From Selenomonas sputigena (lineage in GTDB: Bacteria > Bacillota > Negativicutes > Selenomonadales > Selenomonadaceae), in assembly GCF_026015965.1 (NCBI RefSeq), contig NZ_CP110383.1, positions 2,305,255 to 2,369,254 on the forward strand: DNA of 64,000 nucleotides. The letters run 5' to 3'. Positions 2,697 through 24,627 of the stretch are shown piece by piece. How positions within the stretch are numbered: the first letter of the stretch is position 1; every line of letters begins with the position of its first letter. A program made the translations under genes and the position numbers. The notes beneath the pieces are model-generated. The model did no database searches and was not told the origin of the DNA. It was given only the letters and a program-made list of their open reading frames with translations.

Positions 2697-2701
2697 ATAG
2701 C

Positions 2702-3922
2702 ATGAAAGAGAGGAAAATCCCCTTTTCACCGCCGGATATTACGGAGGAGGAAATAGCAGAAGTTTCAAATGCCTTGCGTTCTGGCTGGATTACGACAGGA
2801 CCGCGCACCAAGCAGTTGGAAAAAGAAGTGGCAGCCTTTTGCGAAAGCTCGAATGGAATGGCGGTGTGTTTGAATTCAGCCACGGCAGCCTTGGAACTTT
2901 CCTTGCGCGTCCTTGGTATTGGTGTGGGAGATGAGGTTATTACTTCGGCCTATACCTATACGGCGAGTGCTAGTGTCATTGACCATGTAGGCGCTAAGAT
3001 TGTTTTGATCGATACGCAGCCCGGTTCATACGAGATGGATTATGACCAGTTGGAACAAGCGATTTCTACGCGGACAAAAGCCATTATTCCAGTGGATTTG
3101 GGTGGCGTCCCATGCGATTATGACCGTCTGTTTGGCATTGTGGAACGACAGCGTGAAAAGTTTTTCCCGCGTACGGAGATTCAACGCAAGATTGGGCGTG
3201 TGGCGATTGTGGCGGATGGTGCGCATGCATTTGGAGCTTCATACAAGGGGAAGAAGATCGGATCGGTTGCGGACTTTACGTCGTTCTCCTTCCATGCAGT
3301 CAAGAATTTTACAACGGCAGAAGGCGGTGCAGCACTTTGGAAGTCGATTCCAGGTGTGGATGATGCAGAGATTTATCATGAATATCAGTTGCTCTCCTTG
3401 CACGGACAGAACAAAGATGCGCTTGCCAAAACAAAGCTTGGAGCATGGGAATATGATATTAAGGGCACATACTACAAGTGTAATATGACCGATGTTTTGG
3501 CGGCAATTGGTCTCGTGCAAATGAAGCGCTATTCAGGGTTGTTGGTGCGGCGGCGTGAAATTATTGCACAGTACGATAAGGGGCTAAAGGATCTTCCTGT
3601 GGAGGTGCTGCCACATTTCACCGACGTTGCACAAGGAAGCGGACATCTATATCTCGTGCGGTTGTTGGATTTTGACGAAAAGAAACGCAATCTGTTTATT
3701 GAAAAGATGGCAGAAAAAGGTGTTGCGACAAATGTTCATTATAAGCCGCTTCCAATGCATACGGTATACAAGAATCTTGGCTTTGACGTCACTGCATATC
3801 CGAATGCGTACGCACAGTATGCAAATGAAGTCACCCTGCCGTTGCATACTTCTTTGACGGATGAGGATGTGGACTATGTCGTTTCAGTCTTTCGGGAAGT
3901 TTATCAAGAGATGAGGATATGA
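2702..3922 (+). CDS. DegT/DnrJ/EryC1/StrS-family sugar aminotransferase (PglE/WbpE-like)
   Basis: This is a PLP-dependent aminotransferase of 406 residues, full length for the family. The PLP lysine is in place (SFHAVKNFTT, K201), as are the cofactor-contacting ADGAHAFGA segment and the N-terminal GWITTGP substrate loop. Start 2702 has AAGGAG at 2686-2691 with 10-nt spacing; the earlier ATG at 2693 is almost on top of that site. Following a 4,6-dehydratase, it probably transfers an amino group to the 4-keto carbon of a UDP-sugar. The matching acetyltransferase (PglD) is not seen nearby, so the sugar may stay as a 4-amino form or be modified by an enzyme elsewhere. Confidence 0.88.
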   Translation: MKERKIPFSPPDITEEEIAEVSNALRSGWITTGPRTKQLEKEVAAFCESSNGMAVCLNSATAALELSLRVLGIGVGDEVITSAYTYTASASVIDHVGAKIVLIDTQPGSYEMDYDQLEQAISTRTKAIIPVDLGGVPCDYDRLFGIVERQREKFFPRTEIQRKIGRVAIVADGAHAFGASYKGKKIGSVADFTSFSFHAVKNFTTAEGGAALWKSIPGVDDAEIYHEYQLLSLHGQNKDALAKTKLGAWEYDIKGTYYKCNMTDVLAAIGLVQMKRYSGLLVRRREIIAQYDKGLKDLPVEVLPHFTDVAQGSGHLYLVRLLDFDEKKRNLFIEKMAEKGVATNVHYKPLPMHTVYKNLGFDVTAYPNAYAQYANEVTLPLHTSLTDEDVDYVVSVFREVYQEMRI

Positions 3923-10677: not shown

Positions 10678-12222
10678 ATGCGAGTAGCAAATGTATTACG
10701 CAACAGCATGTACTCCATGACATTGTATGTCGTGTTGGCTGTCCTCGGCATCTTGATACGGCAGGCGTTTACGCGCCATTTGCCTATAGAACTCTTAGGT
10801 CTTGAAGGATTGTTCACCAATGTGATTGCCCTTTTGTCCATTGCGGAACTGGGAATCAGTACTGTGATCAGCTATGGGCTTTATCGGGAAATTGCGAACA
10901 AGAACGAAGCTGAAGTCAATATACTGATGAGCATCTATCGGTATATCTATCTCTTGATAGGCACGTTGGTTGCCTTGATCGGCATCGTTTTGTTTTTCTT
11001 GTTGCCGTGGATTGTGCGAGATGAAAGCATCGCATGGGGTTATGTTCAATTTGTTTATGTGATTCAAATTTGTACAGTGCTCAGTACGTATTTCCTCGCA
11101 TATAGACGCACATTGTTTGCGGCGGATCAGAAGGATTATATCTGTGTTCGCATCGATCTCGTCTGTACATTTGCCGCGAATCTTGTGAAGTTCGCTGCGA
11201 TTGTTGTTTGGCAGAGTTATACGATGTATGCGCTCTCCGCGCTTGGATTCAACATATTGGCGAATCTGATCATCTCGCATCGGCTTGGCAAGGAATATCC
11301 ATTCCTGCATACGGTCAAGGTCACGATACAGGATTTGCGACAACGAAAATTTTTCGTGGATGTAAAGAATTTCCTGATTCACAAATTATCCTATATTGTA
11401 TATAGCGGGACGGATGCGATCATTATTTCCTCGATACTGGGACTGCGTACAGCTGGTCTTGTGGCAAATTATGTCCTTCTCTGTGATGGCGTTTACAAAC
11501 TCTTGTACAAGATGCTGCAGGGAATCATCCCTTCTGTCGCGAACCTAGTTTATACGGATGATAGGGAAAAAAGTTATCGTGTTTATCGTATGCTGGATTT
11601 TGCTTACTTTTTGATCGGAGGGTATATCGCTTGCATCTATGTCACTGTGCTTCAACCATTTGTGGCGCTCTTCTTCGGGGCAGAATTCTTGCTTGAGGAT
11701 GCCTATGTGAAGGCTTTGGCCGTCAATGTTTTTCTTGGCATGCAGTTTGAGAATGCATACAACTTCCGCAGTACGCATGGTGTGTTTGAAAATGATCGCG
11801 GCTATATGGTTCTATCTGCTGCAACAAATCTGATTTTATCAGTGATCTTGGCGCATTACCTCGGTGTTGTCGGTGTGATGATCGGCACGATTGCAGGTCT
11901 GTGGTTCATCGTCTATGGCCGCGTGCAGTTTGTCTTTCGTGTGATTTTTCGCCGAAGCATGAAGAAATATTGGTGGTGTCATGCGTGGTGGAGCATGGTC
12001 GTTCTTTTGGAAATCATGTTGATTAACGAGATATTGAGTGCGTCATTTTTCTCTTCAACGTATACGGGATTATTCGTCAAATGCCTATGTGCAGCGTTGC
12101 TAATGTTAGGGATGCAGGTTCTTGTATTTCATCGGTGCGAGGAGTTCCGCAGCGTATGTTTGTATGCCGTTGAGGCGAAGGACGTTCTTATGAGTAAGAT
12201 TCGGGGGAGGAAATTTCAATGA
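10678..12222 (+). CDS. Oligosaccharide flippase (Wzx / MATE-like PST family)
   Basis: This 514-residue membrane protein has about 12-14 hydrophobic segments. The N-terminal pattern ([21 protein letters not shown] followed by [13 protein letters not shown]) and the repeated membrane pairs are those of polysaccharide transporters of the MATE-like superfamily. It would move lipid-linked repeat units across the cytoplasmic membrane to the polymerase encoded two genes upstream. The stop overlaps the gmd start by 4 nt, so translation is coupled. Composition is closer to the chromosomal average than the preceding three genes. Confidence 0.87.
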
Positions 12223-13250
12223 AGAAAGCGTTGATTACAGGGATCACAGGGCAGGACGGTTCGTATCTTACGGAACTCTTGCTGGAAAAAGGCTATGAGG
12301 TTCATGGAATCATTCGCAGGCAGAGCAGTCAGAATACGGAGAGAATCGACCATATCTTGAATGATTCGGCGTTTTCCAAGCGTGTTTTCCTGCATTATGG
12401 AGATTTGACGGACTCCAGCAATGCACATGCGCTGATTCGGGAGATTCAGCCGGATGAAGTCTATAATCTGGCAGCACAGTCGCATGTAGCCGTATCCTTT
12501 GAGGTGCCGGAGTATACGGCGGAGGCGACAGGTGTCGGTACGATTCGTATGCTTGAGGCAGTACGCCAGAGCGGGCTGCCGATACGCTTTTATCAGGCAT
12601 CGACTTCAGAACTTTTTGGTGGCTTGCCAGAGACGGCACCTCAGAGCGAGTCAACTCCATTTTATCCGAAGAGTCCTTATGGGGCGGCGAAACTCTACTC
12701 TTTCTGGATTACGAAGAACTATCGTGAATCCTATGGGATGTTTGCCTGCAATGGAATCCTCTTCAATCATGAGTCGCCGCGGCGCGGTGAGACTTTTGTG
12801 ACGCGCAAAATAACGCTTGCAGTCACTCGAATTGCCAAGGGATTGCAGGAGAAGCTGACGCTAGGCAATCTTGAGGCAAAGCGCGACTGGGGCTTTGCGG
12901 GAGATTATGTAGAGGGAATGTGGCGCATACTCCAGCAGGATCAGCCTGAGGACTACGTACTTGCAACGAATGAGACGCATACGGTGCGTGAGTTTGTTGA
13001 GAGGGCTTTCGCTGAGACGGGCGTTCCGATTCGCTGGGAAGGCGAAGGGAGTAATGAGAAGGGCTATGACGCCAAGACCGGGAAGCTCCTTGTCGATGTG
13101 TCAGAGCAATTCTATCGCCCTGCAGAAGTCGAACTCCTCTGGGGGGATTCGACCAAGGCGGAGCATGAGTTGGGATGGAGGCGCAAGGTCGGATTTGCCG
13201 AACTGGTCAAGATGATGGTTGCAGCAGATTTGAAAAAGATACACGCCTGA
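12219..13250 (+). CDS. gmd: GDP-mannose 4,6-dehydratase
   Basis: The protein has 343 residues. The full Gmd pattern is visible: [19 protein letters not shown] at the N terminus, [12 protein letters not shown], the STSELFGG strand, the SPYGAAKLY catalytic motif and [19 protein letters not shown] in the middle. It converts GDP-mannose to GDP-4-keto-6-deoxy-mannose in the cytoplasm. Its partners are in the same locus: manC supplies GDP-mannose, and the fcl-like reductases and a 3-dehydratase-like enzyme can use the product. This makes it the branch point for fucose or dideoxy sugars in the glycan. Confidence 0.95.
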
Positions 13251-13260
13251 AAGGACGGGG

Positions 13261-14211
13261 ATGAGATTGCCGAATGTACGAGATGCATTCTTTTCTGAAG
13301 TCTATCAGATGACGGAGGAAGGGGAAGATATTGTCATCGTATCTGCGGATTTAGGTGCGCCGAGTTTGGATGAGTTCCGGCGCAGATTTCCGCATCGCTT
13401 TGTCAATGTTGGCATTGCAGAGCAGAACCTTCTCGCGGTTGCGTCCGGTCTTGCACTCAGTGGGAAATATGTGATTGCTTTCGGGTTGAATCCGTTTCCT
13501 GTGACGCGCGCATACGATCAGTTGCGCAACTTCTTGGGCGATCTCAAGATTCCTGTTACGGTTGCGGCATTGAATGCAGGGACGTGTGCGTCAGAATGTG
13601 GCTATACGCATATGCCGCTCGAAGATTTTGCAATGGTTCGCATGATTCCTTCCATCAAGATGGTAAATCCGTCCGATACCGCCATTGCGAAAGCGGCGGC
13701 GCGTGACTTGGTGGCAGCTTCGCAGCCAATGTATGTTCGATTTGATAAGTTTCTAATGGAAGAGCATTATCAAGAGCGTGAGGTGGATTTCCAAAAGGGA
13801 TTTTTTGAGATGCCAGCATCAGAACGATTTGCCGTCATTACGACTGGGAATTTTTCTTCTATGCTGAAAAATAGCATCAACACGATTAAGATTCAGGGCG
13901 AATCTCCTAGCCTCTTTGATTGCTATGCGTTCCCTCTGGATACGGATTTGCTGGCAGAACGGTTGAAGCCGTTTTCATGTATAGTGACGCTTGAGGATCA
14001 GACGCCTTGCGCGGGGCTGGGCTCCCTGATCATGGAGACTCTTTCTGCATATGGAATCGTCAAACGGATTCGTGCTCTGGGTGTTGAACCGAAGCATTGG
14101 GAAGGGCGCATTATGAACCGCAGCGCGATTTATGATGAAATGGGATATGATATAAAATCGCTTGGAAAACGACTGCAAAAGACCTTTGAGGAGATGATGG
14201 ATAATGACTGA
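13261..14211 (+). CDS. Transketolase-like protein, C-terminal (pyrimidine-binding) subunit
   Basis: This 316-residue protein matches the second half of transketolase: a pyrimidine-binding domain with FVNVGIAEQNLLAVASGLAL (the AEQ glutamate activates thiamine diphosphate) and a C-terminal domain. The partner half is the next gene, overlapping by 8 nt. Split transketolases usually have the N-terminal half first; here the order is reversed. Inside a nucleotide-sugar locus it is more likely to extend or branch a sugar than to serve the pentose phosphate pathway. That role is inference. Confidence 0.87.
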   Translation: MRLPNVRDAFFSEVYQMTEEGEDIVIVSADLGAPSLDEFRRRFPHRFVNVGIAEQNLLAVASGLALSGKYVIAFGLNPFPVTRAYDQLRNFLGDLKIPVTVAALNAGTCASECGYTHMPLEDFAMVRMIPSIKMVNPSDTAIAKAAARDLVAASQPMYVRFDKFLMEEHYQEREVDFQKGFFEMPASERFAVITTGNFSSMLKNSINTIKIQGESPSLFDCYAFPLDTDLLAERLKPFSCIVTLEDQTPCAGLGSLIMETLSAYGIVKRIRALGVEPKHWEGRIMNRSAIYDEMGYDIKSLGKRLQKTFEEMMDND

Positions 14212-15034
14212 AGCACGCGAATTTGAATCGTTGTATGCATTGTCCTATCAAATGCGGAAACGGTTTTTGGAAATTTTTACGCGATTGGGATTCGGTCATG
14301 TGACGAGTGCTTTTTCGGCAACGGAAATCTTAGTAACACTTTACAAAGAAGTTTTGCGTTACCAAGCAGACGATCCAGAATGGGGAGGCAGAGACCGCTT
14401 TGTTCTGAGCAAGGGACATGGGGCGGGAATGCTTTTTCCTATCTTCGAGGAGATTGGCTATCTGTCTCCTGAACAGATCGATGATATGATTCGCATTGGA
14501 GGCGACTACGAGTATATTCGGAGCCTGTTTCTGCCCGGTTACGATTTTTATGGCGGTTCTCTCGGTCATGGATTGGGAATTGCAGCAGGTTTAGCACTAG
14601 GCGCACGTTTGAATCGAGCGGATTGGCACACATATTGTCTCGTTGGCGATGCAGAGTGTTGTGAAGGATCTATTTGGGAAGCGGCTATGTTTGCAGGTCA
14701 TCAGGAACTGAGCAATCTTGTTGTTGTTGTGGATCGCAATGCGCTTGGCTGTTCAGATTTTACAGAGCACATGTTGCGTATGGAACCCTTTGCTGAGAAA
14801 TGGCGCGCCTGTAACTGGGATGTGCAGGAGGCGGATGGACATACGTATGAAGAGCTTGTCCCTGTGCTGAAAGCGAGTCGTTCGCCCCGCAGATCCAGAC
14901 CGCTTTGCGTTATTGCTGATACCATCAAGGGGAAAGGGTTGGAGTATCTTTATGACAAGCCTTTGATGCACGGCTATATGCCCAATAAACCCGAGGATAT
15001 CGAAAAAGTATTTAAGGAATTGAAGAGGTATTAG
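14204..15034 (+). CDS. Transketolase-like protein, N-terminal (diphosphate-binding) subunit
   Basis: This 276-residue protein carries the thiamine-diphosphate-binding half of transketolase: FVLSKGHGAGM, then GSLGHGLGIAAGLALGARLN and the GDAECCEGSIWEAAMFA motif (GDG-like metal/diphosphate site, here GDA), followed by VVVVDRNALG. It completes the active site together with the preceding subunit. The start lies inside the 3' end of that gene. Together with gmd and the 3-dehydratase-like enzyme it could transfer a two-carbon ketol unit to a 4-keto sugar nucleotide. Confidence 0.87.
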   Translation: MTEAREFESLYALSYQMRKRFLEIFTRLGFGHVTSAFSATEILVTLYKEVLRYQADDPEWGGRDRFVLSKGHGAGMLFPIFEEIGYLSPEQIDDMIRIGGDYEYIRSLFLPGYDFYGGSLGHGLGIAAGLALGARLNRADWHTYCLVGDAECCEGSIWEAAMFAGHQELSNLVVVVDRNALGCSDFTEHMLRMEPFAEKWRACNWDVQEADGHTYEELVPVLKASRSPRRSRPLCVIADTIKGKGLEYLYDKPLMHGYMPNKPEDIEKVFKELKRY

Positions 15035-15082
15035 GGGGATTTGTACGTGGTGGATTATTCGAGGCTGACATAGGAGTTGTTT

Positions 15083-16027
15083 ATGAAGAAGGATAGTAGG
15101 ATCTACATAGCTGGACATACAGGTCAAATTGGCTATGGCTTGGCAAAAAAATTACAATCGGATGGTTATGAAAATGTAATTTTAAGAACACATGATTCGC
15201 TGGATTTGTTGGATCAAAAGAGCGTATGGGATTTTTTTGAAAAAGAAAAACCGGAGTACGTATTTTATTGTGCGGGTACTCTTGGTACTATTGATTATTT
15301 TGTACAGGAAAAAGCTGCGGTTATTTACAATAATCTTATGATGCAAGCTAATGTGATTAACTCTGCTGTCAAGAACAATGTAAAAAAATTACTCTATGTA
15401 GGCAGTGGGGCTGTTTACGGCAGCCATACTTCTTCACCGTTTCAAGAGACAGCGGCGATAGACTCTATACAACAGGGCGGAATGGAGGCATACGCTGTTG
15501 CCAAGATCGCAGGGCTTGAATTGTGCAAACAATATCATGGCATTGCTGGGAGTAAATGTATCTCTGTTTTACCTACGCATGTGTATGGAACGAAGAATAT
15601 TTCTCGTATCAAGAACACTCTGGTTGAAGAGTTGTTGCAAAAAATGCACCAGGCGAAGCTGGAAGGCGCAAAAGAACTTGCGTTAGATATATGGGGAACG
15701 GGGAAGAAGTGTATTCGGCAGTTTATCTATTTGGACGATTTGGTGGATGCGCTTATCTATATAATGGACAACTATGATGAAGTTTTGCCGGTTAATATTG
15801 CGTCAGAGGAGGCTGTTTCTCTGGATGAATTGGCTCATATCATTCGAGAAATTATCGGTTATACAGGTACGCTGCATTATCAGGAAGATAAGACTGAAAA
15901 GACGGATGATCGCCTTATGTCGGTAGCATATTTGCGAGAACAGGGTTGGAAACCTCATTATACATTGCGAGAAGGAATCCAATCTTTCTATACATGGTAT
16001 CTTGATGAACTTCGGGAAAAAGGATAA
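15083..16027 (+). CDS. GDP-fucose-synthase-like SDR (fcl paralogue)
   Basis: This 314-residue extended SDR has the N-terminal motif RIYIAGHTGQIGYGL and YVGSGAVYGS, with a catalytic YAVAK. It is clearly related to the next gene (GDP-L-fucose synthase): the same opening, the same LRTHxxLDL segment, and the same YLDDLVDALIYIMDNYDE stretch. The canonical fcl GSSCIYP strand is replaced by GSGAVYG. Paralogues like this act as ColC-type epimerase/reductases or reduce branched-sugar side chains. The substrate is not decided by sequence. The ATG at 15083 was chosen for its AGGAG site 6 nt upstream. Confidence 0.8.
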   Translation: MKKDSRIYIAGHTGQIGYGLAKKLQSDGYENVILRTHDSLDLLDQKSVWDFFEKEKPEYVFYCAGTLGTIDYFVQEKAAVIYNNLMMQANVINSAVKNNVKKLLYVGSGAVYGSHTSSPFQETAAIDSIQQGGMEAYAVAKIAGLELCKQYHGIAGSKCISVLPTHVYGTKNISRIKNTLVEELLQKMHQAKLEGAKELALDIWGTGKKCIRQFIYLDDLVDALIYIMDNYDEVLPVNIASEEAVSLDELAHIIREIIGYTGTLHYQEDKTEKTDDRLMSVAYLREQGWKPHYTLREGIQSFYTWYLDELREKG

Positions 16028-16064
16028 TAGGTGTCGTGAAATAAAATTTTCGGGAGGTAGGCAA

Positions 16065-16997
16065 GTGGAAATTTCGGATAGGATTTACGTTGCCGGGCAT
16101 ACAGGGATGGTGGGTTCGGCTATTGTGCGCCATCTGCAAAAAAATGGATACTATAATCTGCTGCTGAGAACGCATCGTGAGCTTGATTTGACAGATCAGC
16201 AGGAGACAAGGAGTTTCTTTGAGCAGGAGCGCCCTGACTATGTATTTATCGCTGCGGCGAAGGTCGGTGGAATACAGGCAAACAGTACGTTTCCTGCAGA
16301 TTTTTTGTATGTAAATCTGATGATTAATGCGAATATCATCCATGCGGCGCATGAAGTCGGTGTCAAGAAGCTGTTGGCTTTGGGTAGTTCCTGCATTTAT
16401 CCGAAATTTGCTGACCAGCCGCTTCGTGAAGAGGCCTTTTTGGATGGCAAGCCTGAGCCTACGAATGAAGGCTATGCTATTGCAAAGATTTCGGCATTGG
16501 AGTTGGTGAAGTTCTTCCATCGTCAGTACGGTGACCCGTTTATCAGTTGTATGCCGACGAATATTTATGGGGAAAATGACAACTTCGATTTGCAGGGTTC
16601 ACATGTCATCCCTGCGATGATTCGCAAGTTTCATGCGGCAAAAATGGAGGGGGCGGATTCCGTTACTCTTTGGGGGACGGGAAGCCCGAAACGCGAGTTC
16701 CTCTATGTGGATGATCTTGCAGATGCGTGTGTCTTTCTTATGGATCATTATGATGAAGAAGGGCATATCAATATAGGCAGTGGCGAAGAAGTTTCCATGA
16801 AGGAATTGGCAGAAGGGATTGCGTCTGTTGTAGACTTTCATGGAACGTTGATCTATGATACGGAGAAGCCCGATGGTGCTCCGCGCCGTTTGGTCGATTC
16901 TACGCGTATTCATGAGCTTGGCTGGCAGCATAAGGTATCCTTGCGTGATGGAATCGAACGTTCATATCGATATTTTTTGGAGAATTACAATCAGTAG
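16065..16997 (+). CDS. fcl: GDP-L-fucose synthase
   Basis: This 310-residue enzyme has the complete WcaG/Fcl signature: VAGHTGMVGSAIVRHL, LRTHRELDLTD, FIAAAKVGGI, GSSCIYPKFA, the NEGYAIAKISALEL catalytic YxxxK region and PTNIYGENDNFD. It carries out the 3,5-epimerisation and 4-reduction of GDP-4-keto-6-deoxy-mannose to GDP-L-fucose. Start: GTG at 16065 with GGGAGGT 6 nt upstream; the longer frame open from 16002 overlaps the previous gene without a good ribosome site. Gmd and manC in the same locus complete a GDP-mannose to GDP-fucose route. Confidence 0.92.
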   Translation: MEISDRIYVAGHTGMVGSAIVRHLQKNGYYNLLLRTHRELDLTDQQETRSFFEQERPDYVFIAAAKVGGIQANSTFPADFLYVNLMINANIIHAAHEVGVKKLLALGSSCIYPKFADQPLREEAFLDGKPEPTNEGYAIAKISALELVKFFHRQYGDPFISCMPTNIYGENDNFDLQGSHVIPAMIRKFHAAKMEGADSVTLWGTGSPKREFLYVDDLADACVFLMDHYDEEGHINIGSGEEVSMKELAEGIASVVDFHGTLIYDTEKPDGAPRRLVDSTRIHELGWQHKVSLRDGIERSYRYFLENYNQ

Positions 16998-17021: not shown

Positions 17022-18305
17022 ATGGAGCGGTATCGTGATCCTGTTCATGGTTTTATTGAGGTAAGACCATGGGAGAAGAAGATTATAGATTCTGCTCCGT
17101 TTCAGCGACTCCGTCATATCAAGCAGCTCGCTATGACGAATCTTGTGTTTCATGGTGCAGAGCATACGCGCTTCGGTCATTCGCTGGGTGTAATGTTTTT
17201 GGTGACGAGAGCATTTCACATGGCGGTTGAAAATGGAGCAGGGGAGTATCGTTTTTCGCGCAAGAAAATAGAATGGTATGAACAGATTCTTCGTCTTATT
17301 GCTTTGACGCATGATCTTGGGCATGCACCATTTTCACACGCGTCAGAATCGGTCTTTCCTGATGGGATTGAGCATGAAGATTTCACTGAGAAGATTATCA
17401 AAGAAACAGAGATTGCAGAGTACATCCATGCAATTGGAAAAGAATTTAAAACGAAGGATGAAAAGTACGATATAACACCGGATTTGATTTGTGACATTTA
17501 TCGAGGAAGAGATCCTGGTGAGAAATCAGAGTTTACGTTCCTTAAAAGCTTTATGGATGGTGAGCTGGATTGCGACAAGATGGATTACCTTTTAAGGGAT
17601 TCTCTTTATTGTGGCGTAAATTATGGAAAGTTTGACCTTGAGAGACTACTATCTTCTTTAACGATTGATGGAAAGGAAGGCTTTCCAAGATTGGCAATAG
17701 ATTATGGTGGTCTTAAGGTATTTGAAGAGTTTGTGTTGGCAAGGTATTTTATGTTTACGGAAGTGTATTTTCATCGTACACGCCGCTATTTCGATATTAT
17801 TTTAGGAAAAGCTTTGAAGACTATTTTGCCGAATGGAAAATATCCGGAGAAGGTAGGTTTATATCTGGAGTGGGATGATGAGAGGGTTTTTCAAGAATGC
17901 CGTAAACAAATTGATGATGTAAATTGTAAGAGCATTATAGCAAGGTATGTTTACCCGTGCGTTTTAGAGAGTCCCGCACATGCTGAGGGAGAACAATTAC
18001 GTACATACGATAATTTGAAAAAGCGACTATATAAAGAATTTGGGAAAGAATCTTTTATAGAAGATAGTTCTGCGGATAAGTTGCCACATAAAATTCCTGT
18101 TCGGTGTGAATTGGAAGATGAAAGAGCTATTATTTCTTTTAATAAGCGCATGAAAAAGAGAGTATCTGTCTCCGAGGAATCTTATATTATTCGGGCATTA
18201 GCGACTAAGATAGGAATTAGACGATTATATGCACATCCTATGGTTTCTGAGGAAGCAAAAAAGATTGTGAGAGATTGGTATGCTGCAGACGGGGAGGTAT
18301 CATGA
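17022..18305 (+). CDS. HD-domain phosphohydrolase (YwfO-like)
   Basis: The protein has 427 residues. The HD motif set is clear: H53 in HTRFGHSLG, H97-D98 in ALTHDLGHAPFSH, and a later conserved Asp in DGELDCDKMDYLLRD. The opening (YRDPVHGFIEV) is characteristic of the dNTPase-like group that includes Bacillus YwfO. Such enzymes hydrolyse nucleotides such as dNTPs; the exact substrate here is unknown. The next gene overlaps its stop and is a YwgA-type protein, the same pairing as ywfO/ywgA. Its position inside the glycan locus, between fcl and a dehydratase, is unexpected and suggests insertion as a module. Confidence 0.85.
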   Translation: MERYRDPVHGFIEVRPWEKKIIDSAPFQRLRHIKQLAMTNLVFHGAEHTRFGHSLGVMFLVTRAFHMAVENGAGEYRFSRKKIEWYEQILRLIALTHDLGHAPFSHASESVFPDGIEHEDFTEKIIKETEIAEYIHAIGKEFKTKDEKYDITPDLICDIYRGRDPGEKSEFTFLKSFMDGELDCDKMDYLLRDSLYCGVNYGKFDLERLLSSLTIDGKEGFPRLAIDYGGLKVFEEFVLARYFMFTEVYFHRTRRYFDIILGKALKTILPNGKYPEKVGLYLEWDDERVFQECRKQIDDVNCKSIIARYVYPCVLESPAHAEGEQLRTYDNLKKRLYKEFGKESFIEDSSADKLPHKIPVRCELEDERAIISFNKRMKKRVSVSEESYIIRALATKIGIRRLYAHPMVSEEAKKIVRDWYAADGEVS

Positions 18306-18808
18306 TGAAGATGCTTGAAAAATATGCGCTTCTTATTGGGGATATATGTATGGATGGTCAAACGGGCAAGAAGAAATTGCAAAAACTTATGTATTTAATT
18401 GAGCGAAAAGGTGTTCGGTTAGATTTGCGATATACTATTCACTTCTTTGGGCCGTATAGTTCAAGACTGGATCAAGCTGTTCATATTCTTGAAAATGAAG
18501 ATCGTTTAATCATAGATACATCGGGAAAGACGCACCGGATCATCATGAAGGGGTCGGTGCAGGGGAACCTTCTGGAAAAGGAAGAGAATTTCGTTAATGA
18601 AGTACGGGATGTTTTTTTTGATAAATCTCCAAGAGAGTTAGAAGCATTAACAACAATAGATTATGTTGCAACGTTTTTGTTGCATGGAAAAGCGACGAAA
18701 AAAAGTGTGATTGATCAGGTGCGGCGCATAAAGGGCAAAAAGTTTTCGCGTGAGGATTTGGAACAAGATTATGATTTCCTTATAGAGCAAGGATATATTT
18801 CTGCGTAG
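18302..18808 (+). CDS. YwgA-family protein, partner of the HD phosphohydrolase
   Basis: This 168-residue protein opens with a segment like GKKKLQKLMYLIERKGVRLD, followed by FFGPYSSRLDQAV, as in YwgA and the related Panacea/SocA-type adaptors (helical, winged-helix-like). It starts at the stop of the HD gene (ATGATGA) with GGGGAGG upstream, so the two are translationally coupled. Panacea-like proteins often act as antitoxins or adaptors; pairing with an HD hydrolase suggests control of that enzyme. This functional reading is inference; the family assignment rests on motif memory and on the gene pair. Confidence 0.65.
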   Translation: MMKMLEKYALLIGDICMDGQTGKKKLQKLMYLIERKGVRLDLRYTIHFFGPYSSRLDQAVHILENEDRLIIDTSGKTHRIIMKGSVQGNLLEKEENFVNEVRDVFFDKSPRELEALTTIDYVATFLLHGKATKKSVIDQVRRIKGKKFSREDLEQDYDFLIEQGYISA

Positions 18809-18830: not shown

Positions 18831-20027
18831 ATGGAAAAGATCGGTGTAGGATATGCGTATGTCAGCGATGCTGAGAAACGTTATGTGAATGAGGCTTTAG
18901 ATTCTGGGCGGCTTTCGCAAGGAAAGATGGTTCATAAGTTCGAAAAAGAGTTCGCACGACTTCATGACCAAAAGTATGGTGTTGCCTGCAATAGTGGAAC
19001 GTCTGCCTTGCATGTTTGTTTGGAGGCAATGAAAGAAGTCTATGGCTGGGAAGACGGCAGCGAAGTTCTCGTTCCGGCGATTACTTTCATTGCGACATCG
19101 AATGCTTGCATTCACGCGGGTTTGAAGCCTGTGTTTGTGGATGTGGATCCGATTTCTTATAACATGGATGCTTCTAAGATGGAAGAACGTATCACGGATC
19201 GGACGGTCGCAGCGATTCCGGTGCATACATTCGGACAGCCGTGTGAGATGGATGCAATCATGGCTGTGACGGAAAAGTATGGTTTGCGTGTTTTGGAAGA
19301 CTGTGCAGAAGCACACTTTGCAACGTACAAGGGGAAAAAAATCGGCAGTTTCGGCGATATGGCAGCATTCAGTACGTATGTTGCGCATACGATCACGACG
19401 GGAATCGGCGGCGTCATTACGACGAATAATCTTACGTTGACGGAGATTTCCCGTTCGCTCATCGCACATGGACGTGCCTGCACTTGCGAGACTTGCTTGG
19501 CGTCTGATCCCAGGCAGGTCTGCAAATTGCGCATGCAGACGGAGATGGATAAACGCTTCATGATGGTTCGCATGGGATACAGCTATCGTATCGGTGAGCT
19601 GGAAGGCGCGTTGGGGCTTGGTCAGCTTGAGAATCGCGATCTCATTATGAATACGCGCAAGGAGAACGCGCATTATCTCAGCGAGGGTTTACAGGGAACA
19701 GAGAAGTATCTGCAACTTCCTGAATATCCGGATTATGTCGATCACTCGTTTATGATGTATCCGATTGTTATAAAGAAAGACGCTCCTTTCACGCGCGATG
19801 AGTTTACGCATTTCTTGGAGAAAAACAATATCGAGACCCGTCCCATGCTCCCGTTGCTGAATCAGCCGGTTTATCGGAAGCTGTTTGGCGATATCGAGAG
19901 CGATTACCCCGTTGCCGAGTGGTTGGATCATTATGGGCTTTATGTGGGCTGTCATCATGGGTTGAACAAGGAGCAGCTGGATAAGATTGTGGCGACAATT
20001 AAAGAGTTTTTGCAGGATAAGGTATAA
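18831..20027 (+). CDS. DegT-fold sugar 3-dehydratase with His at the PLP-Lys site and a Cys4 (Fe-S) motif
   Basis: The protein has 398 residues. The fold is that of DegT/StrS aminotransferases (opening SDAEKRYVNEALDSGRLSQG; D157 in LEDCAEAH for PLP). The internal-aldimine lysine is replaced by His186 in AFSTYVAHTITTGIGG, aligned with the Lys of FSFHAVKNFTT in the first aminotransferase. Just after it come C217, C219, C222 and C231 (C-x-C-x2-C-x8-C), close to the C-x-C-x2-C-x7-C [2Fe-2S] motif of CDP-4-keto-6-deoxyglucose 3-dehydrase (RfbH/E1). ColD, the GDP-sugar version, has the His but no cluster. With gmd upstream the likely substrate is GDP-4-keto-6-deoxy-mannose. No obvious E3 reductase is nearby. 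Confidence 0.82.
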   Translation: MEKIGVGYAYVSDAEKRYVNEALDSGRLSQGKMVHKFEKEFARLHDQKYGVACNSGTSALHVCLEAMKEVYGWEDGSEVLVPAITFIATSNACIHAGLKPVFVDVDPISYNMDASKMEERITDRTVAAIPVHTFGQPCEMDAIMAVTEKYGLRVLEDCAEAHFATYKGKKIGSFGDMAAFSTYVAHTITTGIGGVITTNNLTLTEISRSLIAHGRACTCETCLASDPRQVCKLRMQTEMDKRFMMVRMGYSYRIGELEGALGLGQLENRDLIMNTRKENAHYLSEGLQGTEKYLQLPEYPDYVDHSFMMYPIVIKKDAPFTRDEFTHFLEKNNIETRPMLPLLNQPVYRKLFGDIESDYPVAEWLDHYGLYVGCHHGLNKEQLDKIVATIKEFLQDKV

Positions 20028-20229: not shown

Positions 20230-20255
20230 AGCATATCAAATTTGGGAGAAAAATG

Positions 20256-21476
20256 ATGAATATTCTTGTTATAGGAAATGGCTTTGATATCGAATATGGT
20301 ATTCCGAGTAGTTATAAGAATTTTTTGGATTTCGTTGATATTTTTAAGAACGTTTATTGTCGTAGAGAGACAATAGAGAAACTTAATAAGGCGGAGCGAA
20401 AAGCTTTTTTTACACAAAAATTAGAAGAAATATCAAAAATATATAGAGATATTTTCGGACTATGGAATACTAACGAATCTATCGACCCCTTATTTCGTGA
20501 GTTCTATGATATGATAAGTGATAACTATTGGATCAATTATTTTATTGATCCAATAGCTAGACTTGAAGGAAAAAGTAACTGGGTGGACATTGAAGCTGAG
20601 ATCTTACATGTTATACAAACATTGACTGAAAAACGAGAATTTATTATGCAATCAGGTTTTGATGCAACTGCCATGCGTAACCTGAACAAGAAGGATAAAA
20701 AATTCCTGCCCCTTTTTATGGAGAGCGTGATGAATGGATGGAGTGAGACGGGCGGAAAAGTAGAAAGAAAACAACAAATGAGCTATTGGCATCAGATGAA
20801 AGTCGTACTACAGGATGATTTTTCTAAGCTGGTTCGAGCATTAGAGTTATATATCAATTACTTCATAGATTTTGATAAAGTGAATAAGAGAAATATTTTT
20901 GATGGGATTGAATTTGATTATCTTATAACCTTTAATTACACAAATACATATCGAACTCTATATAACCGCACAATCTCTCAAGATTTTATTCATGGACAAG
21001 CTCAAGCAAATCGCAATAAGGAAGACAGTAATGTAGTTTTAGGAATTGAAGAATTCCTCGATGAAGGTCAAAAGGACAGAGATATAGAGTTTATTGGGTA
21101 TAGAAAATATTATCAACGTATTGTAAAACACTGTGATTTTTCCTATAGAACAGTATTAAATAAACCGCAGAATTCACTTAGCATATGGTTTTTTGGGCAT
21201 TCGCTTGCCTTATCAGATAAAGATATTCTTATCAATTTACTCCCTAGTTCGAATTTAGCATCTCAATTTTCTAAAACACCTAAAAATAATGTGCAAAAGG
21301 CTTACATCTGTTATTATAATCAGCAGACATTGGAGCAACAAGTTGTAAATTTAGTTCAAATTTTAGGACAGGACGCCTTAAATGATTTGGTTTGTGGTGC
21401 AAATCCTAAAATTGAATTTGTTTTTCAAGGTGACTTTAAGAGAAAACGAACGATAGCCATGAATGCGGAAAGGTAG
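20256..21476 (+). CDS. AbiH-family phage abortive-infection protein
   Basis: This 406-residue protein opens with MNILVIGNGFDIEYGIPSSY and FLDFVD, the hallmark N terminus of AbiH-family proteins, in which an IGNGFD motif is followed by a helical body. Members are known from lactococcal abortive infection; their biochemical action is not established. The gene is AT-rich compared with its neighbours manC and the 3-dehydratase gene, which suggests acquisition. It interrupts a set of GDP-mannose genes. The ATG at 20256 is preferred (GGGAG 7 nt upstream); the ATG at 20253 is adjacent. Confidence 0.82.
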   Translation: MNILVIGNGFDIEYGIPSSYKNFLDFVDIFKNVYCRRETIEKLNKAERKAFFTQKLEEISKIYRDIFGLWNTNESIDPLFREFYDMISDNYWINYFIDPIARLEGKSNWVDIEAEILHVIQTLTEKREFIMQSGFDATAMRNLNKKDKKFLPLFMESVMNGWSETGGKVERKQQMSYWHQMKVVLQDDFSKLVRALELYINYFIDFDKVNKRNIFDGIEFDYLITFNYTNTYRTLYNRTISQDFIHGQAQANRNKEDSNVVLGIEEFLDEGQKDRDIEFIGYRKYYQRIVKHCDFSYRTVLNKPQNSLSIWFFGHSLALSDKDILINLLPSSNLASQFSKTPKNNVQKAYICYYNQQTLEQQVVNLVQILGQDALNDLVCGANPKIEFVFQGDFKRKRTIAMNAER

Positions 21477-21477
21477 A

Positions 21478-22812
21478 ATGGGATATAGTATGCAGATAGT
21501 ATTACTTTCAGGTGGAGCTGGGAAACGGCTATGGCCTCTGTCCAATGATCTTTATTCTAAACAATTTCTCCGCATCTTGAGACGCGAGGATGGGACGCTG
21601 GAGTCGATGATTCAGCGTGTTTGCCGTCAAGTGCAGTGCGCCGCGCCGGATACGCCCATCACCGTTGCGACAGGTCGCGAGCAAGTCTCGTTGATTCGCC
21701 GCCAGCTTGGTTCTGGGGTGAACATTTCGGTGGAACCGTGCCGGCGTGATACGTTTCCTGCGATAGCGTTGGTGTCTGCCTATCTGCATGAAGTGCGCGG
21801 TATTCCTCTCGATGAGGCTGTAGCGATTTGTCCTGCCGATCCTTATGTCGATGAGGGATATTTTCGTGCCGTTGTGCAGTTGCTCGAAGAAGCCGAGAGG
21901 GAAGGTTCTGCGAATCTTGTCTTGATGGGAATCGAGCCGACGTATCCGAGCGAGAAGTATGGTTATATCATGCCTGTTTCGCAAGAGCCGCAGAGTATGG
22001 TGCAGTCGTTCAAAGAGAAGCCGGATAAGGAGAAGGCTGCAGAATACATCGAACAAGGCGCTTTGTGGAATAGCGGCATTTTCGCGTTCAAGCTTGGCTA
22101 TGCGCTCGATAAGGCTCGTGAATTGCTGAACTATACGGATTACGAGGATCTTTTCAATCGCTATGAAGAGCTTTCCAAGATCAGCTTTGATTATGCTGTG
22201 GTCGAGAAAGAGAAAAATATTGCAGTTCAGCGCTACAGTGGCACTTGGCTTGATATAGGCACGTGGAACACGCTTGCTGAGGTGATGCCAGAGCATACGA
22301 TTGGTCGCGTCACGATGGATGAGACTTGCAGGAATGCTCATGTCGTGAATACGTTGCCGATGCCCATCCTTTGCATGGGATTGAAGGATGTCGTGGTGGC
22401 AGCGAGCCCGGAAGGCATCCTCGTTTCGGACAAGGAGCGATCCAGCGCAATGAAGCCTTATGCAGAGCGACTTCATACGCCAGTGATGTATACGGAAAAG
22501 TCATGGGGCGAGTTTCAGATCATCGATGCAGAGACGGAGAGTTTGACCATCAAGATTACACTGAGTCCAGGACGCTCGCTCACCTATCATTTGCACGAGC
22601 GCCGCGATGAAACGTGGACGGTGATTGAAGGCCGTGGCTGGGTGAAACTCGACGGTAATGAGTTCGCTGTTGCTGAGGGGCAAACGGTGCGTATACCTAG
22701 GGGGTCTTTTCATACGATACGGGCAGAGACGCTGCTGAAGGTGATGGAGATTCAGACGGGTGAGGATATTGATGCGGAGGATAAGATTGTGTGGGGCGGC
22801 GAAATATGGTGA
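21478..22812 (+). CDS. manC: Mannose-1-phosphate guanylyltransferase / mannose-6-phosphate isomerase (type II)
   Basis: This 444-residue bifunctional-type enzyme has an N-terminal nucleotidyltransferase (VLLSGGAGKRLWPLSN followed by KQFLRIL, and FKEKPDKEKA in the sugar-binding region), the LWNSGIFAFK segment, and a C-terminal cupin (LTYHLHERRDETWTVIEGRG) of the phosphomannose isomerase type. It makes GDP-mannose for gmd. The ATG at 21478 has GGAAAGGT just upstream and follows the abiH stop by one base, so it is probably co-transcribed with it. Confidence 0.93.
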   Translation: MGYSMQIVLLSGGAGKRLWPLSNDLYSKQFLRILRREDGTLESMIQRVCRQVQCAAPDTPITVATGREQVSLIRRQLGSGVNISVEPCRRDTFPAIALVSAYLHEVRGIPLDEAVAICPADPYVDEGYFRAVVQLLEEAEREGSANLVLMGIEPTYPSEKYGYIMPVSQEPQSMVQSFKEKPDKEKAAEYIEQGALWNSGIFAFKLGYALDKARELLNYTDYEDLFNRYEELSKISFDYAVVEKEKNIAVQRYSGTWLDIGTWNTLAEVMPEHTIGRVTMDETCRNAHVVNTLPMPILCMGLKDVVVAASPEGILVSDKERSSAMKPYAERLHTPVMYTEKSWGEFQIIDAETESLTIKITLSPGRSLTYHLHERRDETWTVIEGRGWVKLDGNEFAVAEGQTVRIPRGSFHTIRAETLLKVMEIQTGEDIDAEDKIVWGGEIW

Positions 22813-22842: not shown

Positions 22843-24627
22843 ATGTCTGATTTGCTTATTAGAAATGAACCGATTCAGGCAGTATTTAGTTGGTATATGA
22901 ATGAAAAATTTTGGGTTAATAGAAAGTACCAGCGAAAACTGGTATGGACATTAGCAGAGAAAAGCAAGTTTATAAATTCGATCATGCGCTCTTATCCGGT
23001 ACCATTATTTTTATTGGCTGAAACAAGTCAATGTAATGAACAGGGGTATGAAATTATTGATGGGATGCAGAGGTTAGAGGCTGTTTTTAGTTTTTTGAGA
23101 GGAGATTATAGTGTTACTCTAGATGGAGAAAATGGTTTTTTTGACTTGTCTACAATGGCAGAAACGAAGGCCTTATTGGATAGTAATGAGATACAGCAAA
23201 ATACACCTGTTCTGTCACGAAAAATGTGTGTAGATTTGGCAAATTACCAAATCCCTTTGTCTATAACAAGGTTTCAAGAAGAAGAGGTAGAAGAGATTTT
23301 TAGAAGAATAAATGCAACAGGGAGATTACTTTCTCATCAAGATTTGCGTCAAGCAGGAGCGACCGAATATTTTTCTGAGTTGGTCAGGAAAATATCCAGT
23401 CAGATAAGACGTGACACTTCACCTTCGGATAGACTTCCTTTATCAAAGATGAGAGAAATCAGTCTTTCATCTTCAAAATTGCCGTATGGAATTAATCTGA
23501 AAGATGTTTTTTGGGTCAGACAGCAAATTATTACTGTTAATAATATGCGATTGTCTAGAGATGAAGAATTAATCAGTTACTTGTTAATGTACATATTGTT
23601 AGGAGACAAAATAGACCCGACCGCAAAAAATCTAGATGAGATTTATGGAGCTGAAAATAATTCAAAAAACATTATAAATGATATTGCTGTTGTTGTTGAG
23701 CGAGAAGGTGAGAAAGAAATTATTGAGCGATTTATTAAGGTTTTTGATGAATTTGAAAGAGTTTTGGAAAAGTCTAATCGATCATTTAGTTGGTTGGTGT
23801 TTGGAGATGAATCACATGCAAAAGTGAGAACTTTTCAAGTTGTATTTTTAGCTTTTTATAAATTGTTGACCAATGGAAAAATTCTAGTAAGTATAGATAG
23901 ACTGATTGAGCAACTATCAGGAATTGGAAAGCGTGAATTCAACAATATATCTTCTAGAAAATGGACGGCAAAATATAGAAATGAAAAAATAAATGCAATA
24001 GAGGGGATTATAAAGGATTGCTTTATGGACTCAGAACAGAGTAATCCTGCAGTTGATAATTGGGTAAGTAAACTGGAAAATATTCTTATGCAATCTAAAA
24101 TAGAACAACAACTTTTTGATTTTAAGGTGGGGGTGTATGATTTTTGTTCTAGAAAATATAATGAGCAATGTATAAGGAAATGTGTAAAAACCTTGACTGC
24201 AATGGCTAACATGAAAAAAAACACGACGGGATATATTCTTCTTGGTGTTGCAGATGATAAAAAAGATGCGGATAAGCACAAGAAACTATACGGAACAAAA
24301 CCAAAGTCGTTTAATAATTTTTTTATAGTTGGAGTTGATGGAGAAGTAGAAAAATATCATAAAAGTATGGATGAATACTATAATAGAATTAAGCAAGTTA
24401 TAGAGAAAGAACCTGTTGATGATTATATTATCTCATATATTACTAGAAATATGAGATTAGTTAACTATTATGATAGAAGCATTGTGGTTCTATCTTTGCA
24501 ATCAAAGGATAAACCTTTGCTATATGATCAAAAGTATTATGAGAGGCGTGGAGCCAATAATCACAGACTTGATGTAAACGAAGTATCTCCTCCTTATATG
24601 GCGGACTTGTTTTCACGCTTCCAGTAA
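22843..24627 (+). CDS. DUF262 protein with C-terminal AlbA_2 (Schlafen-like) domain
   Basis: The protein has 594 residues. The N-terminal 370 residues match DUF262 (ParB/GmrS-like NTPase): RKYQRKLVWT, VPLFLLAE, then the DGQQR-type motif as DGMQRLEAVFSFL (D73-R77) and FRRINATGRLLSHQDLR. The C-terminal part (about 435-594) fits the AlbA_2/Schlafen-type nucleic-acid-binding domain, with TLTAMANMKKNTTGYILLGVAD and a late ERRGANNHRLDV. It lacks the GmrD-type HNH (DUF1524) half. DUF262 proteins are common in anti-phage systems; here the effector would be the AlbA_2 part. It is AT-rich and stands at the left edge of the defence island. Confidence 0.75.
   Translation: MSDLLIRNEPIQAVFSWYMNEKFWVNRKYQRKLVWTLAEKSKFINSIMRSYPVPLFLLAETSQCNEQGYEIIDGMQRLEAVFSFLRGDYSVTLDGENGFFDLSTMAETKALLDSNEIQQNTPVLSRKMCVDLANYQIPLSITRFQEEEVEEIFRRINATGRLLSHQDLRQAGATEYFSELVRKISSQIRRDTSPSDRLPLSKMREISLSSSKLPYGINLKDVFWVRQQIITVNNMRLSRDEELISYLLMYILLGDKIDPTAKNLDEIYGAENNSKNIINDIAVVVEREGEKEIIERFIKVFDEFERVLEKSNRSFSWLVFGDESHAKVRTFQVVFLAFYKLLTNGKILVSIDRLIEQLSGIGKREFNNISSRKWTAKYRNEKINAIEGIIKDCFMDSEQSNPAVDNWVSKLENILMQSKIEQQLFDFKVGVYDFCSRKYNEQCIRKCVKTLTAMANMKKNTTGYILLGVADDKKDADKHKKLYGTKPKSFNNFFIVGVDGEVEKYHKSMDEYYNRIKQVIEKEPVDDYIISYITRNMRLVNYYDRSIVVLSLQSKDKPLLYDQKYYERRGANNHRLDVNEVSPPYMADLFSRFQ

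Follow-up and report, generated by a model that had tools for sequence, protein, structure and literature searches.

A histidine-type DegT protein with a four-cysteine loop, a probable iron-sulfur GDP-sugar 3-dehydrase, in a GDP-mannose locus of Selenomonas sputigena

The window, the whole 64,000 nucleotide stretch of Selenomonas sputigena DNA analysed here, is part of a single-contig genome of 2.61 Mb and contains a set of sugar genes around the DegT-type gene P0001 (Table 1). An earlier reading made from the sequence alone (the sequence-only reading) had placed P0001 in a GDP-mannose locus and this was borne out by the presence of gmd, two fcl-like genes and a manC-like gene. No CDP-glucose pathway genes were found within 5 kb of P0001 in the window. 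The two Fcl-like proteins differ in the Cys109/His179 pair, which we take to be the epimerase residues of Fcl: the pair is present in fclB, in ColC and in E. coli Fcl and absent from fclA. FclB scored 471.7 bits against a curated profile cut-off of 500 and kept the Cys/His pair. A tree of Fcl-like proteins (33 sequences) placed it, together with its Centipeda counterpart, on the Fcl side and not on the ColC side. Genes of other kinds are interleaved with the sugar genes at 17022-18808, 20253-21476 and 22843-24627 (HD-domain, DarG-C-like, AbiH and GmrSD/NsnA-like), and in Centipeda (L038), too, HD and DarG-like genes separate fclB from the dehydrase.

Table 1. Genes and sequence features of the P0001 locus (window coordinates)
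Feature	Position	Strand	Basis or remark
gmd, GDP-mannose 4,6-dehydratase	12219..13250	+	60% to E. coli Gmd
Split transketolase, C-terminal/pyrimidine half	13261..14211	+	Domain match
Split transketolase, N-terminal half	14204..15034	+	Pfam/profile match
fclA, Fcl-like reductase in which the Cys109/His179 pair (E. coli Fcl) is missing	15077..16027	+	Alignment
fclB, GDP-L-fucose-synthase-like	16002..16997	+	52% to E. coli Fcl, 40% to ColC
P0001, proposed PMP/[2Fe-2S] GDP-4-keto-6-deoxymannose 3-dehydrase, DegT fold, His for Lys	18831..20027	+	Sequence, profile, tree
Cys158-Ala159	19302..19307	+	Ala159 is the E1 C193 position, Cys158 the E1 C192 position
His186 codon at the PLP-lysine position (E1 His220, ColD His188)	19386..19388	+	Alignment
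Gly214-Arg215...Cys217-x-Cys219-x2-Cys222-x8-Cys231, proposed cluster-binding loop	19470..19523	+	Motif, conservation
manC-like mannose-1-phosphate guanylyltransferase	21463..22812	+	Pfam domains pass; below NCBIfam equivalog cut-off

P0001 is an open reading frame of 398 amino acids with an ATG start, and an AGGAGG sequence is located 5' of the start codon. The protein matched DegT_DnrJ_EryC1 (Pfam PF01041, E 2.8e-98). His186 aligned with the lysine that is catalytic in DegT aminotransferases, and with the E1 residue that is lysine in the H220K mutant, and the position was histidine in all 60 rows of the relatives' alignment (A3), so that none carries the catalytic lysine of an aminotransferase. 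Four cysteines follow within a short stretch (C217, C219, C222 and C231, spaced C-x-C-x2-C-x8-C), and the corresponding G-R-x-C-x-C-x2-C-x8-C DNA pattern had a single match in the window and no match in 100 shuffles. Both the histidine at the PLP-lysine site and the four clustered cysteines had been picked out by the sequence-only reading and were confirmed. An AlphaFold2 model of P0001 built on the 60-row alignment had a pLDDT of 92.8 and a pTM of 0.91, and its weakest part was the region of the proposed cluster loop (residues 221-240, pLDDT 57-58). Fold matches to the PDB were GDP-perosamine synthase (Z 52.2) and E1 (Z 51.3), a tie by the rule of the tool, and ColD (Z 49.3). A control AlphaFold2 model of a true RfbH (alignment A6, 49 rows) matched E1 with a Z of 60.1 and its next match with a Z of 51.0. 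The predicted fold of P0001 is consistent with a subfamily of its own and does not discriminate between functions.

Searching the genome with P0001 recovered two further DegT proteins, a lysine-type protein at 2693-3922 of the window and a classical RfbH (L002, also L230) at C1:100117-101280. This RfbH has EDNCDA and a C-x-C-x7-C loop, and an rfbG homologue is found some 3 kb away. For the E3 reductase the genome gave only a weak match (best E 5.1e-5), and the CDP pathway of the genome, with its RfbH and rfbG homologue, may also use another electron donor.

Named relatives, 63-96% identical to P0001, come from Centipeda, Selenomonas, Pelosinus, Fonticella and related MAGs. Of 380 genomes searched across the class (E up to 1e-110), 23 contained the family, with 24 matches including the window's own; some of these genomes are the same as those of the named relatives. 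The Tyr-x2-His pair and the four loop cysteines were present with constant spacing in 24 of 24 matches, a conservation that within the Negativicutes partly reflects relatedness. Among 398 genomes sampled across the phylum, the only family-strength match was that of the window, and three further matches came under a limit of 1e-90 (4.9e-93 to 5.4e-91). The same histidine and the same four cysteines were also found in P0002 of the Solidesulfovibrio magneticus plasmid pDMC1, which is 38% identical to P0001. Viral contigs were scanned with a DNA-level pattern that names only the Tyr-x2-His pair and the G-R/Cys spacing. The scan found five stretches, and in four of these (L255, L256, L257 and L259) the pattern lies in frame in a His-type DegT protein related to P0002 at 39-57%; no open frame carries the motif in the fifth (L258). 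The histidine and four cysteines thus occur at 35-40% identity to P0001 in P0002 and in four of the five viral stretches. With P0002 as the query, one relative at 30% was found among the viral contigs.

The cysteine layout was compared to that of E1. Counted on the alignment, E1 has cysteines at 192, 193, 251, 253, 257 and 261, and we take C193, C251, C253 and C261 to be the ligands of its [2Fe-2S] cluster, the set reportedly given by Agnihotri in 2004. C217, C219 and C231 of P0001 aligned with E1 C251, C253 and C261 in a common G-R-x-C-x-C...C-x2-R frame, the E1 C193 position is Ala159 in P0001, and Cys222 is an extra cysteine at no E1 ligand position. The sequence-only reading had assigned P0001 the RfbH/E1 layout with a last spacing one residue longer than in E1, and neither part stood. 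Alanine occupies an E1 ligand position with Cys222 completing the four, and the spacing had been taken from gaps that are not homologous: the x8 gap of P0001 begins at C222 and the C253-C261 gap of E1 (x7) matches C219-C231 (x11).

The C193 position was compared over 163 non-identical His-type rows, among them E. coli O55 ColD twice, with loci L001, L004, L005, L080 and L082 set aside from the layout comparison as copies or off-target. Alanine was found in all 22 distinct four-loop-Cys sequences and in four viral ones found later. Rows with an E1-type loop and a residue at this position had cysteine in 78 of 80 and alanine in 2 of 80, with two more rows gapped; the RfbH rows came mostly from one scan, as the best 80 of 111 relatives. 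Rows without a C-x-C loop, two of them RfbH-like (L200, whose loop is altered, and L223, which is truncated), had cysteine in 56 of 59 and alanine in 3 of 59, so that a cysteine at the C193 position alone marks no cluster. The upstream cysteine and Cys222 never occurred together in the compared rows, which are kin and represent few independent events. Cys158 was considered as the fourth ligand instead of Cys222 and rejected, as all four loop cysteines are retained in P0002, L256, L257 and L259, which read EDAAEA at this site.

Two viral RfbH-like proteins have loops of their own. The protein from Synechococcus phage S-H68 (L147:3884-5179) has a C-x-C-x11-C loop of the same length as that of P0001, keeps the upstream cysteine and is without Cys222. 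The L200 loop reads C-x2-C-x3-C with the first cysteine changed to tyrosine, a possible cluster variant.

Trees were built without the Cys loop and without positions 158, 159 and 186. Near-copies and some long branches were removed, which kept 62 of 87 rows in the first tree and 58 of 91 in the tree with viral relatives. In the 62-row tree the new four-Cys group of P0001 (NEW4C) was supported at 100/99, RfbH at 100/97 and the lysine aminotransferases at 100/99, with the 16 lysine rows beyond a 100/99 branch from the histidine rows. ColD of E. coli O55 and a Haladaptatus protein with histidine at the catalytic site (L146, FFSHH) grouped together and joined RfbH at 100/99 with 62 rows and 100/100 with 58 rows. 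A single clade of NEW4C and RfbH was rejected (p-AU 9e-64), as were a single clade of all cluster-type rows (p-AU 1e-82, and 1.3e-12 in a later test with viral relatives) and one of all cluster-free histidine rows (p-AU 2.7e-6). The phylogenetic check proposed in the sequence-only reading therefore sets P0001 apart from ordinary aminotransferases, and the distinct subfamily suspected there is supported by the separate clade and the AU tests.

The sister of NEW4C was a set of His-DegTs without any loop cysteine. Six are bacterial (L056-L061, from Elusimicrobia, Armatimonadota, Chloroflexi and other MAGs), and the histidine was present and the loop cysteines absent in 59 of 59 matches on IMG/VR viral contigs (L086-L144), 15 to 31 of which were placed in the trees. 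Some of the 59 adjoin gmd and fcl, which suggests 3,6-dideoxy GDP sugar synthesis by phages or mobile islands, the contigs being putatively viral. The Solidesulfovibrio-like four-Cys group (97/91) fell outside the branch joining NEW4C and the cluster-free set (100/98). The four-loop-Cys rows were not one clade in the best tree, but a single clade was not rejected with the viral relatives included (p-AU 0.067; 0.027 with P0002 alone). The fewest changes of the cluster trait were two among the histidine rows and three with the lysine rows scored as cluster-free. Three changes are reached by one gain and two losses or by two gains and one loss, and parsimony favours neither. On these trees ColD and the sister group may each have lost the cluster.

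Gene neighbourhoods of the relatives were counted without short or reference loci (L002, L004, L005, L010, L011, L018, L027, L029, L032, L081 and L145). gmd lay within 5 kb of 12 of the 14 four-Cys members with complete flanks, or 11 of 13 when L033 and L042, which are one stretch twice, were counted once, and of 15 of 23 overall. The exceptions were P0002 and the window, where gmd lies 5.6 kb upstream, within the same cluster. The counts were 10 of 81 for RfbH rows and 22 of 65 for the cluster-free sisters, which are mostly viral contigs and no matched control. A frequent order was gmd, an fcl-like gene and the dehydrase, often with manC next. In the tree of Fcl-like proteins, 12 dehydrase neighbours (11 without the duplicate) formed a clade with E. 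coli O55 ColC at 100/100. ColC and the dehydrase share one reading frame in L045, L046 and L047 (L046 in full is P0004), an Fcl-type half is fused to the four-Cys dehydrase in L049 (P0005), and both domains were found by Pfam in P0004 and P0005. Six of the 24 class-wide open frames are 708-732 amino acids long, which fits fusions and may represent the same genomes as L045-L049.

CDP pathway genes were also found near some four-Cys dehydrases: in 3 of 23 rows (L041, L044 and L052) rfbG lay at most 5 kb away. L041 and L052 have rfbF, rfbG and RfbH, and L053 has RfbH; with a classical RfbH in the same stretch, a CDP dehydrase is already present at these loci. In L044 rfbF and rfbG lie beside the four-Cys dehydrase with no RfbH in the 17 kb stretch, so the dehydrase may have a CDP role there. 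A ThDP E1-alpha/transketolase-C pair lies beside the dehydrase in the Solidesulfovibrio locus and in L259, and split transketolase genes lie near 8-9 of 81 RfbH rows. Split transketolases adjoin 3-dehydrases in the window (13261-15034), in L049 and, beside RfbH, in L041 and L053, with the E1-alpha type in L036 and L259, hinting at branched 3,6-dideoxy sugars.

As described in the review PMC8987622, E1, SpnQ and ColD expel the C3 hydroxyl using PMP and a catalytic histidine; in E1 and SpnQ the intermediate is reduced by an iron-sulfur cluster, and in ColD it is hydrolysed and glutamate restores PMP. The Cys loop in the E1 frame places P0001 with the chemistry of E1 and SpnQ, and the gmd and ColC partners place it on the substrate of ColD. 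From the sequence features, conservation, phylogeny, gene context and fusions we propose, with a probability of about 70%, that P0001 is a PMP-dependent nucleotide-sugar 3-dehydrase with its own [2Fe-2S] cluster, acting on GDP-4-keto-6-deoxy-D-mannose as a counterpart of ColD. What stood of the earlier idea of an iron-sulfur 3-dehydrase layout in a GDP setting was the 3-dehydrase-type His-DegT and the GDP-mannose context; the E1 cysteine layout did not. The cluster-free sisters, the ColC neighbours, the ColC-dehydrase fusions and the classical RfbH elsewhere in the genome went beyond what that reading had anticipated.

The substrate would be the product of the adjacent Gmd. PMP would form a Schiff base with the C4 keto group of the sugar, a proton would pass from PMP to His186 with expulsion of the C3 hydroxyl, and the resulting 3,4-ene intermediate would undergo two single-electron reductions via the cluster to give GDP-4-keto-3,6-dideoxymannose. 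The cluster would be held by the four cysteines of one loop (217, 219, 222 and 231) and not by three loop cysteines and Cys193 as in E1. As the genome has only the weak E3 match a general electron donor would be needed, and the electrons would presumably come from a general ferredoxin/flavodoxin system as for SpnQ. In PMC7851689 purified E1/E3 was not brought to activity, so that a failed assay, taken by itself, would not disprove a cluster-dependent activity. In many relatives a ColC-type epimerase/reductase would act next to produce GDP-L-colitose. FclB is Fcl-like and not ColC-like and a split transketolase is present, so the end product of the window may be a sugar other than colitose; there a branched 3,6-dideoxy sugar may be made from the 4-keto sugar through the split transketolase and the reductase that lacks the epimerase residues. 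The review PMC12247030 reports that ThDP enzymes branch CDP-4-keto-3,6-dideoxyglucose and that split transketolases have been proposed to branch keto sugars. With this precedent and the adjoining ThDP/split transketolase pairs, a branched GDP-3,6-dideoxy sugar is a reasonable candidate for the product of the window locus.

The four cysteines could instead bind zinc or nothing essential, and P0001 would then be a cluster-independent dehydrase that uses PLP/PMP and glutamate like ColD and has its enamine hydrolysed. A GDP-heptose enzyme with PLP/glutamate is described in PMC10440746. The cluster-free sisters (L056-L061 and the 59 viral contigs) have the same FSTYVAH-type signature and in part the GDP context; they show that the fold can work without the cysteines, which counts against the cluster, and the genome is without a close E3 reductase. 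However, the four cysteines are invariant in the 24 class matches and in the distant Solidesulfovibrio-like group and share the frame of the E1 cluster ligands, and we consider a cluster-independent enzyme unlikely. P0001 as ColD itself was rejected on the four loop cysteines and on the placement of ColD with RfbH in the trees.

A classical RfbH/E1 member acting on CDP-4-keto-6-deoxyglucose would fit RfbH being the best NCBIfam model for P0001 (256.7 bits), E1 being tied with the first structural match and L044 having adjoining rfbF/rfbG with no RfbH in the stretch. That score is under the curated NF011936 cut-off of 423, where the true RfbH from L053 reached 603.6, the joint clade with RfbH was rejected, the full set of C193, C251, C253 and C261 is not present, the genome has a separate RfbH near its rfbG homologue and the context is that of gmd. 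The tree and the ligand set rule out P0001 as an RfbH family member and we give this reading hardly any credence. GDP-perosamine synthase was the best PDB sequence match (214.8 bits) and first by fold, tied with E1, which would fit P0001 being a sugar aminotransferase that descends from that enzyme and has lost the lysine, or being a homologue with no activity or with a regulatory role. Histidine in place of lysine throughout the relatives' alignment, the lysine rows on their own side of the tree (100/99) and the operon and fusion with ColC make these readings very improbable, and P0001 as a lysine aminotransferase was rejected by the histidine at the lysine position and the separate lysine rows.

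The pairing of a B6 cofactor with an iron-sulfur cluster in the 3-dehydrases is rare, and we know of no settled reason why E1 and SpnQ use the cluster when ColD deoxygenates without one. Two sister clades, one cluster-type and one cluster-free and each found in part near gmd, would make this question directly testable on similar active sites. An iron-sulfur GDP-sugar 3-dehydrase was not found in the open-licence PMC papers searched. If the proposed function of P0001 is true it would be a second cluster-binding solution on the DegT fold and would point to a ColD-free colitose route in anaerobes. A more extended scenario, which we offer tentatively and expect to fail in some part sooner than to hold as a whole, is a GDP-specific branch of iron-sulfur 3-dehydrases with the fourth ligand moved into one loop, whose closest sister sequences, often found on viral contigs, would have lost their cluster in an event separate from that in ColD, and whose product in the window and in Solidesulfovibrio passes to a ThDP enzyme making a GDP-linked branched 3,6-dideoxy sugar. 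Reductive (iron-sulfur) and hydrolytic (glutamate) C3 deoxygenation would then have switched more than once on one fold.

Among known systems, E1/DdhC/RfbH (PDB 3bcx, 3bb8; NCBIfam NF011936) shares with P0001 the DegT fold, histidine for lysine, the G-R-x-C-x-C...C loop and, as predicted for P0001, C3 deoxygenation. P0001 differs from E1 in the alanine at C193, the added C222, a spacing from the second to the last shared cysteine of x11 and not x7, the lack of the N-terminal extension of E1, its separate clade and its GDP context. ColD (PDB 2gms, 3b8x; E. coli O55 copy L081) has the same histidine and gmd and manC context, the ColC partner seen in many relatives of P0001 and probably the same product. 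Unlike P0001, ColD has no loop cysteines and, according to PMC8987622, no cluster, and together with the Haladaptatus protein L146 it falls with RfbH whereas the P0001 family falls elsewhere. SpnQ, a dTDP-4-keto-2,6-dideoxyglucose 3-dehydrase compared by description only, resembles the proposed P0001 in its [2Fe-2S] cluster, PMP and use of general ferredoxin/flavodoxin systems (PMC8987622) and differs in its dTDP substrate and antibiotic pathway. GDP-perosamine synthase (PDB 3bn1) is the best sequence match in the PDB, ties for first by fold and acts on the substrate proposed for P0001, but it has its catalytic lysine and no Cys loop. The cluster-free His-DegT sisters are alike in clade and FSTYVAH-type site and lie partly beside gmd and fcl; in contrast to P0001 they have no loop cysteines, and most carry a cysteine at the E1 C193 position.
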